Assembly: GCA_937944885.1 (NCBI GenBank)
Contig: CALFBB010000010.1
Coordinates: forward strand, 1 to 64,000
Source: an uncultured cyanobacterium
Lineage (GTDB): Bacteria; Cyanobacteriota; Cyanobacteriia; Thermostichales; Thermostichaceae
Direction: 5' to 3'
Length of the DNA stretch: 64,000 nt
Under the pieces are notes generated by a model that saw only the letters and a program-made list of their open reading frames with translations, ran no database searches and was not told the DNA's origin. This document shows positions 40,730 to 54,375 of this stretch, in pieces (positions within the stretch are counted from its first letter, which is position 1; each line of letters opens with the position of its first letter). The position numbers were made by a program, and so were the translations under genes.

Positions 40730-41977
40730 ATGTCGCCCCTGAGTTCTAGCTTTGCTCAGACCAACACGGGATCCCCCACAACTGCGGATCTGTTTGCCGA
40801 GCATGTGATGTCCACTTATGGGCGCTATCCCCTGACGCTGGTGCGCGGGCAGGGATGTCGCGTTTGGGATGAACAGGGGCGGGAGTACCTGGATTTTGTG
40901 GCCGGTATTGCCACCTGTACCTTGGGCCATGCTCACCCGGTTTGGATCCAAGCTTTAACTGAGCAGGCTCAACAGCTGCACCATGTTTCTAATCTTTACT
41001 ACACCCCCCCCCAGGCACAACTGGCCCAATGGCTGACCCGGCACTCTTGTGCGGATAAGGTATTTTTCTGTAACTCCGGGGCAGAGGCCAATGAAGGGGC
41101 CATTAAGCTGGCCCGCAAATACGCCCACACCGTGCGCGGGATCCAGGAACCGGTGATTCTCACCGCCCATGGCAGCTTCCATGGCCGTACCCTGGCTACT
41201 GTCACTGCTACCGGCCAGCCCAAGTACCAAAAAGACTTTGCCCCCTTGGTTCCCGGTTTTGACTACATTCCCTACAACGACATTGAGGGGACGGAAGCTG
41301 TCTTGAACCGCTGGGGGGAGCGGGTCTGTGCGGTGTTGCTGGAGCCTCTCCAGGGGGAGGGGGGGGTTTTACCCGGGGATCCCACCTATTTTCAGTGGTG
41401 GCGACGGGTATGTAATGAGCGAGGCATTTTGCTGATGCTGGATGAGGTGCAGGTGGGCATGGGCCGTACCGGTAGGCTCTGGGGCTACTGCCACCTGGGG
41501 GTGGAGCCGGATATTTTCACGCTGGCGAAGGGCTTAGCGGGTGGGATCCCGATTGGGGCTTTGTTGGCTAAGGACTTTTGTGCGGTGTTTCAACCTGGGG
41601 ATCATGCCAGCACCTTTGGGGGCAACCCTTTGGCTTGTGCCGTGGGCTTGGCGGTTTGTCGCACCTTGATGTTGGACAGTTTGATTTGGAATGCTCAACA
41701 AACGGGGGCCTATTTGCGTCAGGGCCTGTCTCGACTGGCGGAACAATTCCCCAGGCTGATCGAGCAGGTACGGGGCTGGGGCCTGATTCAAGGGTTGGTG
41801 ATGCGGATCCCGGCAGCAGAGGTGGTTAAAGCGGCGATGGAGATGGGCCTCCTGCTGGTGCCGGCGGGGCTGCAGGTGGTGCGCTTTGTACCCCCCTTGA
41901 TCGTTACCCCAGCAGAGATCGACCAGGCGCTGGCTTTACTGGGATCCGCTTTGGAAAGGTTGGCAGCTTCTCACTGA
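40730..41977 (+). CDS. argD: Acetylornithine aminotransferase ArgD
   Basis: 415 residues. The class III aminotransferase marks are clear: WDEQGREYLDFVAGIATCTLGH, FFCNSGAEANEGAIKLARKYA, AHGSFHGRTLATVTATGQ, LDEVQVGMGRTG, and the PLP lysine in TLAKGLAGGIPIGA. It works in arginine synthesis, giving N-acetylornithine from the semialdehyde, and in many bacteria also acts in lysine synthesis. The first 20 residues have no family likeness and may be extra. Confidence 0.95.
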   Translation: MSPLSSSFAQTNTGSPTTADLFAEHVMSTYGRYPLTLVRGQGCRVWDEQGREYLDFVAGIATCTLGHAHPVWIQALTEQAQQLHHVSNLYYTPPQAQLAQWLTRHSCADKVFFCNSGAEANEGAIKLARKYAHTVRGIQEPVILTAHGSFHGRTLATVTATGQPKYQKDFAPLVPGFDYIPYNDIEGTEAVLNRWGERVCAVLLEPLQGEGGVLPGDPTYFQWWRRVCNERGILLMLDEVQVGMGRTGRLWGYCHLGVEPDIFTLAKGLAGGIPIGALLAKDFCAVFQPGDHASTFGGNPLACAVGLAVCRTLMLDSLIWNAQQTGAYLRQGLSRLAEQFPRLIEQVRGWGLIQGLVMRIPAAEVVKAAMEMGLLLVPAGLQVVRFVPPLIVTPAEIDQALALLGSALERLAASH

Positions 41978-50788: not shown

Positions 50789-52090
50789 CTAGGTGGAGCG
50801 CAGTTGCACCGGCATAACCAAGTAACACAAGCGCATTGCTCCAATCGGCCTCCAAATGGCAGGTTGTACCGCACCGTTGAGATCCAAGCTCACCTGCTGA
50901 GTGTGAAATACCTTGAGAGCATCGAGTAAATAACGCACGTTAAAAGCCAGCTCCAGATCCGGTCCCGACATTTGGATCGGCAGAGACTCTTGGCCACTCC
51001 CCACATCGGGAGCTTCGGTGCTGATCTGAAGGGTCTGGGCTGCTGCAGAAAGCTGGAACTTGACGATATCATTCTTCTGAGCAGCAAACACGCCCACCCG
51101 CTCTAGCGACTCTATCAAGGGCCGACGCTCTAGGGTCACTTGTCGCTCAAATTGGGTGGGAATCAGGCGTCTATAATCAGGATATTGCCCCTCCAAGAGC
51201 CGGCTGATGATTAAATGACGTTCGAGGCTAAACTGCACCTGGGACCGGTCAAAGCGCAGCTGCACGGTCTCGGCCACTTGGTTGCTGAGAATCCGCTCCA
51301 ACTCTCGCAAAGTACGGGCGGGAACCGTGAATTCTAAGCCCCGTCCCGGAAACTCACTCAGACTTTCATCTCCAGCGCGGAGCATCATCAGCTCAGTCTG
51401 CACCGTAGCCAAACGATGCCCATCCGTAGCCGCAAACTCCAACAATGGGGGATCCCCCGGTAAGAGTTTGACGTGTACCCCTGTCAGCACCTGCTTGGTG
51501 TCATCCCCAGAGGCAGCAAAGAGGGTTTGGCTAATCCCCTGCAACAGGCTCTCAATGTTCAGCTCCAAAGTTTGTGCTGCTCCATCCCCAGCACCTACCT
51601 CAGGAAAGGTAGGGTAGTCCTCAGCAGACAATCCCCGTACCTGGTACTGACCAACTGTCGAAATCAAGGTCACGGGAGCATCCTCTCGTGGCTGACTCAG
51701 GGTAACCTTGCCCCCGGGCAGGCGGCTGACAATGTCGCCAAGTAGCCTGGCCGGTAGGGTGGTACGGCCGGTGACCTCCACCTGAGCATCAAACTCACTG
51801 CGGATACCCAAGCTTAGGTCAAAGGCAGTTAGGGCCACTCGTTGCCTGTCTGCATCCGCTTCCAGCAGCACATTGGCCAAAACCGGCATGGACGGACGAC
51901 TGGCCACAGCCCGACCCACCAATCCCAGGTGCTGACTGAGATCCGCTTGCTCACAGGTCAGGTTCAAAGAGAAAGAGCGGGCGGAATCCCCTCCCGAACC
52001 TGCACCAAAGCGGCTCTGAGACACATCAGCGTTGTCTGTCAGGCTTTGGGCTTGCACCATGACGAGCACTTGAGGACTGAATATGCACAT
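50789..52090 (-). CDS. dnaN: DNA polymerase III beta clamp
   Basis: 433 residues from the first ATG; the third domain ends in the clamp-like CYLVMPVQLR. The true start may be the ATG at 52060 (MVQAQSLTDN), since the first 40 residues are not family-like. GRAVASRPSMPVLANVLLEA, TVGQYQVRGLSAEDYPTFP, AATDGHRLATVQTEL and LLEGQYPDYRRLIP are standard. The ring holds the polymerase on DNA. It is downstream of dnaA, with the origin between. Confidence 0.97.
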   Translation of the reverse strand: MCIFSPQVLVMVQAQSLTDNADVSQSRFGAGSGGDSARSFSLNLTCEQADLSQHLGLVGRAVASRPSMPVLANVLLEADADRQRVALTAFDLSLGIRSEFDAQVEVTGRTTLPARLLGDIVSRLPGGKVTLSQPREDAPVTLISTVGQYQVRGLSAEDYPTFPEVGAGDGAAQTLELNIESLLQGISQTLFAASGDDTKQVLTGVHVKLLPGDPPLLEFAATDGHRLATVQTELMMLRAGDESLSEFPGRGLEFTVPARTLRELERILSNQVAETVQLRFDRSQVQFSLERHLIISRLLEGQYPDYRRLIPTQFERQVTLERRPLIESLERVGVFAAQKNDIVKFQLSAAAQTLQISTEAPDVGSGQESLPIQMSGPDLELAFNVRYLLDALKVFHTQQVSLDLNGAVQPAIWRPIGAMRLCYLVMPVQLRST

Positions 52091-52200
52091 CCTACACCGA
52101 TCGGCCCGCTTCGGATCCCTAACCCTGGCAGTAACTTCAATCGCGCGTGAGAAGTTTAAAATCTCGATCCCTACTCTATCTAAAAATTTTGATCTAGTAG

Positions 52201-52558
52201 TAGTAGGGGCTGTGGAAACTGTGGAAAGTGATCCTCAACACCTTGTGCCACAAGCTTTTGACCTTATTCCCCACCTGTGGAAAAAATGTGGAAAACTAGC
52301 CTAGTTTTCCACAGAGTATTTATACCTGTTAATAACTTAGGGGGTTTTTCCACAGGTTTTCCACAGGTTTTTGGGGTTTTTCCACAGGTTTTCCACAGGT
52401 TTTTGGGGTGGAAATGTTGCTATTTCCTGACAAATTCACAAAACTTAACACACAATCAGTGTTAGATCCCCTAACCTGGTGAATCCTCCCTCTAGATGTG
52501 GTCAGAGATTTCATCGTGGTTTGGGCGAGCCACGATGGATTTCCACAGGTTTTCCACA
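52201..52558. other. Predicted chromosomal replication origin (oriC) with DnaA boxes
   Basis: Eleven matches to the cyanobacterial DnaA box TTTTCCACA lie here. Four are on the minus strand as TGTGGAAA(N) at 52211, 52220, 52276 and 52287. Seven are on the plus strand at 52305, 52346, 52357, 52378, 52389, 52539 (ATTTCCACA) and 52550. They stand between dnaA and dnaN, the usual place of an origin. An AT-rich stretch at about 52415-52465 could be the unwinding element. Orientation of the S10 operon, away from the origin, agrees. Confidence 0.85.
52342..52405. repeat. Two exact 32-bp tandem repeats inside oriC
   Basis: Copies at 52342-52373 and 52374-52405 are identical, and each holds two DnaA boxes 11 bases apart, so the four boxes are spaced 11, 21 and 11 bases apart. 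Confidence 0.92.
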
Positions 52559-52950: not shown

Positions 52951-54375
52951 TTAGCGTTGGCAGGATGAGCCTCCGGCGTTGGACAGGGAGATAAACCGTA
53001 GCCGTTCTGCCAGGTTTTGCAGTTGTCGTTCAAATTGCAAGCTTTCCCGTTGCAACTGGGCCACCTTCTCGCAACTGTAGAGAACAGTGGTGTGATCTTT
53101 ACCGCCAAAGTAATCACCGATTTTGGGCAAGCTGAGGTTGGCGTGGTGACGCATGAGAAACATTGCAATTTGGCGAGCTTGGCTAATCTCTCGTTTGCGG
53201 GAGGTTCCTAGTAAACTCTCGCGGTCGATGCCAAACTCTTCACAAACCACTTTGACCACCATATCGGCCGTGATCTCTTTCGGTTCTGTGGGTGGGTTAA
53301 GGATTGGCTGAATGGTCTCTACACTCATCGGTAGGCCGGAGATAGAGACATAGGCTACAGCTCGGATCAAAGCCCCTTCCAACTCACGGATGTTGCTGGT
53401 GTAGGTGGTGGCAATGTACTCAATCACCTCAGCAGGCAGGTTCATGCCCTCGTACTCGGCTTTTTTCTTGAGAATGGCCATGCGAGTTTCAATATCTGGG
53501 GATTGGATCTCGGCAATCAAGCCCATGGAAAACCGGGAACAAAGCCGCTCCTGCAGGCGAGGGATCAGATGGGGGGAGCGATCGGCAGCTAGGACAATTT
53601 GTTTGCCGGATTCATGCAGAGTATTAAAGGTATGAAAAAACTCTTCCTGAGTGTACTCTTTGCCCTCGATAAACTGGATATCATCCACCAGCAGCACATC
53701 TACAGCTCGGTAATGCTCCCGAAATGATTGCATACTATCCCGACGGATAGCATCGATTAAATCGTTGGTAAAGCGCTCTGTGGAAACATAAAAGATCTTG
53801 GCGTGACGATTGGCTTCCAGTTGATAGTGACCAATCGCCTGCATCAGGTGGGTTTTACCCAAACCAACTCCACCACAGAGAAAAAGAGGATTGTAGGCAC
53901 GACCAGGTTTATCGGCTACCGCCAAGGCAGCAGCGTGGGCCATGCGGTTGTTGGCGCCCACCACAAAGCGGGAGAAGGAATACTTAGGGTTGAGATCCGG
54001 CGCTCGCATCGGCAGGCTGCTCCCCACTTCCAGTCCTAAAGTGGCGGAAGTAGGTAAGTTACTGGGAGAGGGCAAGGAAATGCCGGTGGCTTGTGGTTCC
54101 TCCTCGGTTAAGGCCTGGGGGGAAACGGAGAACTCCACCTGTAAAGGGATCCCGGCTACCCGTTGCACAACCTCTGTGATGGTGGGGGCATAGTGTTTCT
54201 GCAGCCAGCCCCGTGCCCATTCACTGGGCGTACAGATGGTCAGGCGATTATCCACCAAGGATTCGGCTCGGGCCGTTTTGATCCAGGCCTCGAAGGTTGG
54301 ACGGCTAAGCTGCACCTGTAAGTGCCGCAGAGCCTCATCCCAGAGTTGATCCAGGGAGATATCCACGCAACACAC
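52951..54375 (-). CDS. dnaA: Chromosomal replication initiator DnaA
   Basis: 474 residues from GTG at 54375; the GTG at 54366 ([13 protein letters not shown]) is nearer to family starts. Domain I covers about residues 4-85, a short variable linker follows, and then the AAA+ domain with [20 protein letters not shown] and [20 protein letters not shown]. The last domain has the DnaA box-binding motif [19 protein letters not shown]. It opens the origin at start of replication and is divergent from nothing; the origin lies at its 3' side. Confidence 0.98.

Follow-up and report, generated by a model that had tools for sequence, protein, structure and literature searches.

A chromosomal oriC with a probable DnaA-trio unwinding module in a Thermostichus-like cyanobacterium

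The dnaN–dnaA interval and its DnaA boxes

The window, a 64,000-nucleotide stretch of a cyanobacterial contig, carries two replication genes on its minus strand with an 860-bp intergenic gap between them. One is dnaN (50789–52090), which encodes the DNA polymerase III sliding clamp with the N, central and C DNA_pol3_beta domains of Pfam; the other is an intact dnaA (52951–54375), whose 474-aa product, the replication initiator, has the Pfam domains DnaA_N, Bac_DnaA and Bac_DnaA_C and aligns over its full length with the B. subtilis-type DnaA 8btg_A. The longest dnaN ORF begins about 40 codons ahead of the region common to most relatives, and because matches mostly start at residues 33–42, the true dnaN start may lie further in, which would make the spacing between oriC and dnaN slightly larger.

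The gap contains 11 DnaA boxes, eight of them exact copies of TTTTCCACA and three with one mismatch, compared with a mean of 0.36 and a maximum of 4 in 2,000 dinucleotide shuffles of the 860-bp region. Four boxes lie on the minus strand: box 1 (GTTTCCACA, 52211–52219) and box 2 (CTTTCCACA, 52220–52228), which have one mismatch each and abut directly in tandem, followed by the exact boxes 3 (52276–52284) and 4 (52287–52295), whose 11-bp spacing is conserved. Seven lie on the plus strand, beginning after a conserved 18-bp step with box 5 (52305–52313) and continuing with boxes 6 (52346–52354), 7 (52357–52365), 8 (52378–52386) and 9 (52389–52397), all exact; about 150 bp further on stand box 10 (ATTTCCACA, 52539–52547), which has one mismatch and is not conserved outside the genus, and the exact box 11 (52550–52558), which is conserved to order level. 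The orientation switches between 52295 and 52305, in agreement with the first-pass annotation, which had described four boxes facing one way, seven the other and a switch at about 52300. Conservation to order level also extends to short motifs around CAGTGT and AGATATG in the interval between boxes 9 and 10 (52431–52500); no DnaA box covers them, and they are possibly another protein's site or a dnaN promoter element.

In 55 of 68 cyanobacterial species oriC lies beside dnaN (PMC4674748), and two marks of a cyanobacterial origin, adjacency to dnaN and a cluster of TTTTCCACA boxes beyond chance, are both present here. The locus is the chromosomal oriC at its usual cyanobacterial site, as had been proposed from the sequence at first reading; its position between dnaN and dnaA and its box cluster bear that identification out. 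It is an origin of the ordinary cyanobacterial kind, well preserved, with an initiator-site layout common to many cyanobacteria. To this known picture we add an unwinding module, the class-wide extent of the layout and a comparison of trio retention across lineages.

The DnaA-trio and its tandem boxes

On the dnaN side of the array stands an element that the first-pass annotation had left out, half of it lying before the start of the described segment at 52201. The plus strand from 52195 to 52228 reads TAGTAGTAGTAG-GGGC-TGTGGAAAC-TGTGGAAAG, that is, four trios, a spacer and two abutting boxes. The DnaA-trio (TAGTAGTAGTAG, 52195–52206, plus strand) consists of four TAG repeats, a proposed single-strand DnaA site, and recurs across the class; all 12 of its columns, like all nine of box 1, are invariant in nine genomes to order level, and box 2 is conserved as well. 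The GC-rich spacer GGGC (52207–52210, plus strand) runs from trio to box, and its 4-nt length is kept in nearly all trio-bearing relatives. Beyond the trio lies an AT-rich stretch (52151–52194) that, judging from its composition and from where it lies with respect to the trio, which matches the basal unwinding system (BUS) model (PMC8287927), is likely the first DNA opened, a putative DUE; 40-bp windows over 52161–52220 are 65–68% AT.

The BUS has been described for B. subtilis and is predicted in 85% of bacterial origins (PMC8287927). It calls for at least three NAN trios, a DnaA box within 0–16 bp that is often one of a tandem pair, and a DnaA with an AAA+ domain, a box-binding domain and a single-strand-binding isoleucine. 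At this locus, we find four TAGs, a 4-bp spacer, two abutting boxes and a DnaA that has both domains by Pfam, together with Ile207, which in the 8btg_A alignment falls on the single-strand-binding residue I190 of B. subtilis. From the sequence, the trio, GGGC and the tandem inverted boxes at 52211–52228 probably form an unwinding module, and this module tells more about how the origin works than the number of its boxes.

B. subtilis DnaA-boxes 6/7 form a similar arrangement between dnaA and dnaN, with a box pair, a short GC-rich spacer and TAG repeats, although the trio series is mixed there, whereas all four TAGs are perfect here, and the surrounding box array is different. Thermotoga maritima oriC also has tandem TAGs beside a box cluster of mixed orientation, and its three tandem TAGs are essential for opening (PMC10316083); its box sequence differs, however, an extra trio element intervenes and the array layout is not homologous. 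Another close counterpart is the origin of S. elongatus PCC 7942/6301; S. elongatus DnaA opens its origin in vitro, an activity abolished by trio or box mutations or by I224A, a single-strand-binding mutation of DnaA (PMC8287927). That origin shares with the present one its place beside dnaN, the TTTTCCACA boxes, the core order, the trio and the GGGC spacer, at near-identical core spacings (9-53-11-19-31 in S. elongatus, 9-56-11-18-41 here). It differs in that dnaA lies elsewhere rather than adjacent, in the layout of the plus arm and in having regular GC skew (PMC7198777).

We envision that DnaA would first bind double-stranded DNA at boxes 1 and 2, the tandem inverted pair, and that its assembly would then extend over the GGGC spacer to the TAG repeats in single-stranded form, so that AT-rich DNA on the dnaN side would melt and helicase could be loaded there. 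The inner inverted pair (boxes 3 and 4) and the plus boxes (5 to 9 and 11) would hold further DnaA that nucleates or stabilizes the complex, and the two arms may be likened to the facing DnaA-binding arms of E. coli oriC. A different melting site is conceivable, namely the AT-rich gap between boxes 5 and 6 (52314–52345), where the converging arms would melt the DNA between them. Near the orientation switch, 52301–52340 is 70% AT and so equals the trio-side stretch, but the sequence there is not conserved beyond the genus, whereas the trio is invariant and the trio–box geometry fits a demonstrated unwinding module (PMC8287927); we regard opening in that gap as quite unlikely. AT content was dropped as a sole marker of the melting site, as three stretches reach about 0.7.

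The trio also bears on whether the cluster could be a DnaA-titration site or a regulatory site of the dnaN promoter rather than an origin. A second, smaller conserved cluster does exist away from oriC, which means that clusters alone are no proof of an origin. The trio–tandem module, however, has a single match in the whole genome, at this locus, in the typical cyanobacterial oriC position (PMC4674748), and we consider a purely titrating or regulatory role very improbable. The second cluster has five boxes (two exact, three with one mismatch) at 41099–41195 of contig 43, between an ORF with a RibD_C domain and a DUF2811 ORF; orthologues occur in two of the relatives compared (G002 and G005) and a weaker one in a third (G007). 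It may possibly be a DnaA-regulated promoter or a DnaA-titration site.

Conservation of the layout and age of the repeat

We aligned nine oriC regions, the present one with those of five genus-mates, two family members and one order-level relative, and found the same layout in all nine. Invariant columns across the nine genomes number 93 of 115 in the elements and 43 of 395 outside them (p about 1e-46, a value that is descriptive given the relatedness of the taxa and the interdependence of the columns); within the genus, the counts are 110 of 115 and 207 of 395.

A core of this layout stands upstream of dnaN in most of about 50 cyanobacterial genomes sampled. Its order is the trio, a 4-nt spacer, two inverted boxes 8–9 bp apart, 52–56 bp, an inverted pair with boxes 11–12 bp apart, 17–20 bp and a plus-strand box. 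A strict pattern of trio and tandem boxes matched 140 of 390 genomes of the class, and its reversed control matched none. The 2,696,255-bp genome G037, which we take to be S. elongatus PCC 6301, carries the same core without mismatch. Because the same core recurs across much of the class, the converging box orientation is a standard cyanobacterial design.

Within the plus arm, a 32-bp unit, GGGGTTTTTCCACAGGTTTTCCACAGGTTTTT, occurs twice without any difference, at 52341–52372 and 52373–52404, with boxes 6 and 7 in the first copy and boxes 8 and 9 in the second; the self-match at a shift of 32 extends over 37 nt. The spacings of 11-21-11 correspond to offsets of about +17, +17 and +34 degrees at 10.5 bp per turn, that is, to roughly one helix face, a phasing that is conserved in the relatives. 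Sequence and arithmetic agree on this point with the first-pass annotation, which had also derived the four boxes from the 32-bp duplication. The alignment contradicts that derivation: both doublets, with steps of 11-20/21-11, occur in all eight relatives (five in the genus, two in the family and one at order level). The four repeat boxes are therefore ancestral and older than this genome, and a recent duplication that created them is ruled out. What is special here is only the exactness of the linker, which is identical in both copies in this genome alone; in the relatives, the doublet step is 31 or 32 bp and the linker has diverged. Local homogenization or a few substitutions would each suffice to explain the exact identity.

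The array stands beside dnaN in all eight close relatives. dnaA is less fixed: it adjoins oriC in the window and in three relatives (G002, G006 and G008) and lies away from it in the other five. In three of these (G003, G005 and G007), dnaN and oriC lie on a contig that does not carry dnaA. In the other two, G001 and G004, which are presumably JA-3-3Ab and JA-2-3B'a, dnaA is at the deposited chromosome start, with dnaN and oriC near 1.65 and 1.62 Mb, respectively, so the zero point of these genomes is dnaA and not the predicted oriC. For JA-3-3Ab, the Ori-Finder authors had already pointed out that the deposited start is not at the predicted oriC (PMC2275245). Their predicted origin for Synechococcus sp. 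JA-3-3Ab, presumably a member of the same genus, resembles the present one in its position beside dnaN and its TTTTCCACA boxes and lacks typical GC skew; it differs in that dnaA is about 1.3 Mb from oriC. Judging from the ORFs, the former dnaA side is now occupied by a tRNA-dihydrouridine synthase-like gene in G001 and a RelA/SpoT-like gene in G004; these neighbours are unlike, and hence the dnaA-side flank differs between the two genomes.

Strand skew, trio retention and DnaA dependence

GC skew had been suggested as a check on the origin, with a minimum elsewhere counting against it. We sampled GC, TA, CDS and third-position skew in stretches of four relatives (G001, 40; G004, 20; contig 2 of G002, 13; G008, 7) and found no V shape centred on oriC in these samples, nor any GC, TA or CDS switch at oriC in the 20-kb samples of the two complete genus-mates, G001 and G004. 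The organism's own genome is in 62 contigs, and its oriC contig is weakly asymmetric (−0.002 to the left and +0.024 to the right over 34 kb). In G004, the sign of third-position skew flips near 1.0 Mb, a position that is neither that of oriC nor that of dnaA, and we attach no meaning to this. JA-3-3Ab is known to lack typical GC skew (PMC2275245), and JA-3-3Ab and JA-2-3B'a are among the chromosomes with the weakest skew (PMC2099444). Because these genus-mates have no skew switch at oriC, the skew check does not decide the origin.

Flat, irregular skew in the genus-mates is also a ground for a different view of the locus, that it is an oriC by descent in an organism that now starts replication at multiple sites or without DnaA, as Synechocystis 6803 and Nostoc 7120 do, and that the array is kept for control of dnaN transcription by DnaA or for occasional use. 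In cyanobacteria, such skew tends to accompany independence from DnaA and oriC (PMC7198777), and several relatives have dnaA away from oriC. Yet strong constraint acts on the trio and on every spacing of the array, control of transcription would need no trio, and boxes have survived loss of the trio in several lineages, heterocystous ones among them. We therefore think this view improbable. Taken as a whole, the locus very probably serves a Thermostichus-like cyanobacterium as its only chromosomal oriC, follows the standard design of cyanobacterial origins and is opened by DnaA through the trio module.

DnaA dependence had first been suggested here from the large number of boxes. Box number does not carry that conclusion: Scytonema, Tolypothrix and Microcoleus keep arrays without a trio, and Nostoc PCC 7120, like Synechocystis 6803 and Synechococcus 7002, can do without dnaA (PMC7198777). 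Some cyanobacteria that have dnaA replicate without DnaA, whereas in S. elongatus, with oriC near dnaN, dnaA is essential (PMC7198777). Similar-sized arrays without a trio mean that dependence on DnaA cannot be judged from the number of boxes. Such dependence is nevertheless the reading we favour for this locus, whose trio module is intact and invariant, and DnaA-driven initiation at this oriC is likely on these grounds.

A boxes-only pattern, with no trio required, matched 159 of the 390 class genomes. Among the boxes-only matches listed, 37 had no strict trio match by hand count, and 20 of these, read directly, comprised three with a variant trio and 17 with none. Among named loci with the array just downstream of dnaA, nine keep the trio (for example, Trichocoleus, Lyngbya confervoides, Kastovskya and Pantanalinema) and 20 have lost it (Microcoleus, Tychonema, Okeania, Trichodesmium, Argonema, Tolypothrix, Scytonema and others), in a comparison that covers origins other than those of Nostoc 7120, Synechocystis 6803 and Synechococcus 7002. 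In two Nostoc, about 16 nt that include gcgatcgc, or a close variant of it, separate the TAG repeats from the box; Microcoleus and Tychonema have a gcgatcg-like (HIP1) sequence at the expected place of the trio.

Trio retention appears to be a better mark of DnaA-driven opening than box number. That trio loss follows DnaA loss was already expected by the authors of PMC8287927, and in our data the relation is a correlation. We tentatively propose that, across cyanobacteria, the trio and not the box count marks the lineages that open oriC by DnaA, that arrays outlive the trio where DnaA is dispensable and that the present lineage has kept its module intact despite the loss of skew. DnaA dependence in cyanobacteria is usually argued from GC skew or the presence of dnaA; a trio kept or lost beside a conserved array is a sharper sequence mark, predicting that DnaA drives opening in this lineage and that several of the filamentous lineages named above have lost this mode of opening. 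With the module intact here although skew has vanished and, in several relatives, dnaA has moved, skew loss by itself would, if this proposal is true, not mean loss of DnaA control.
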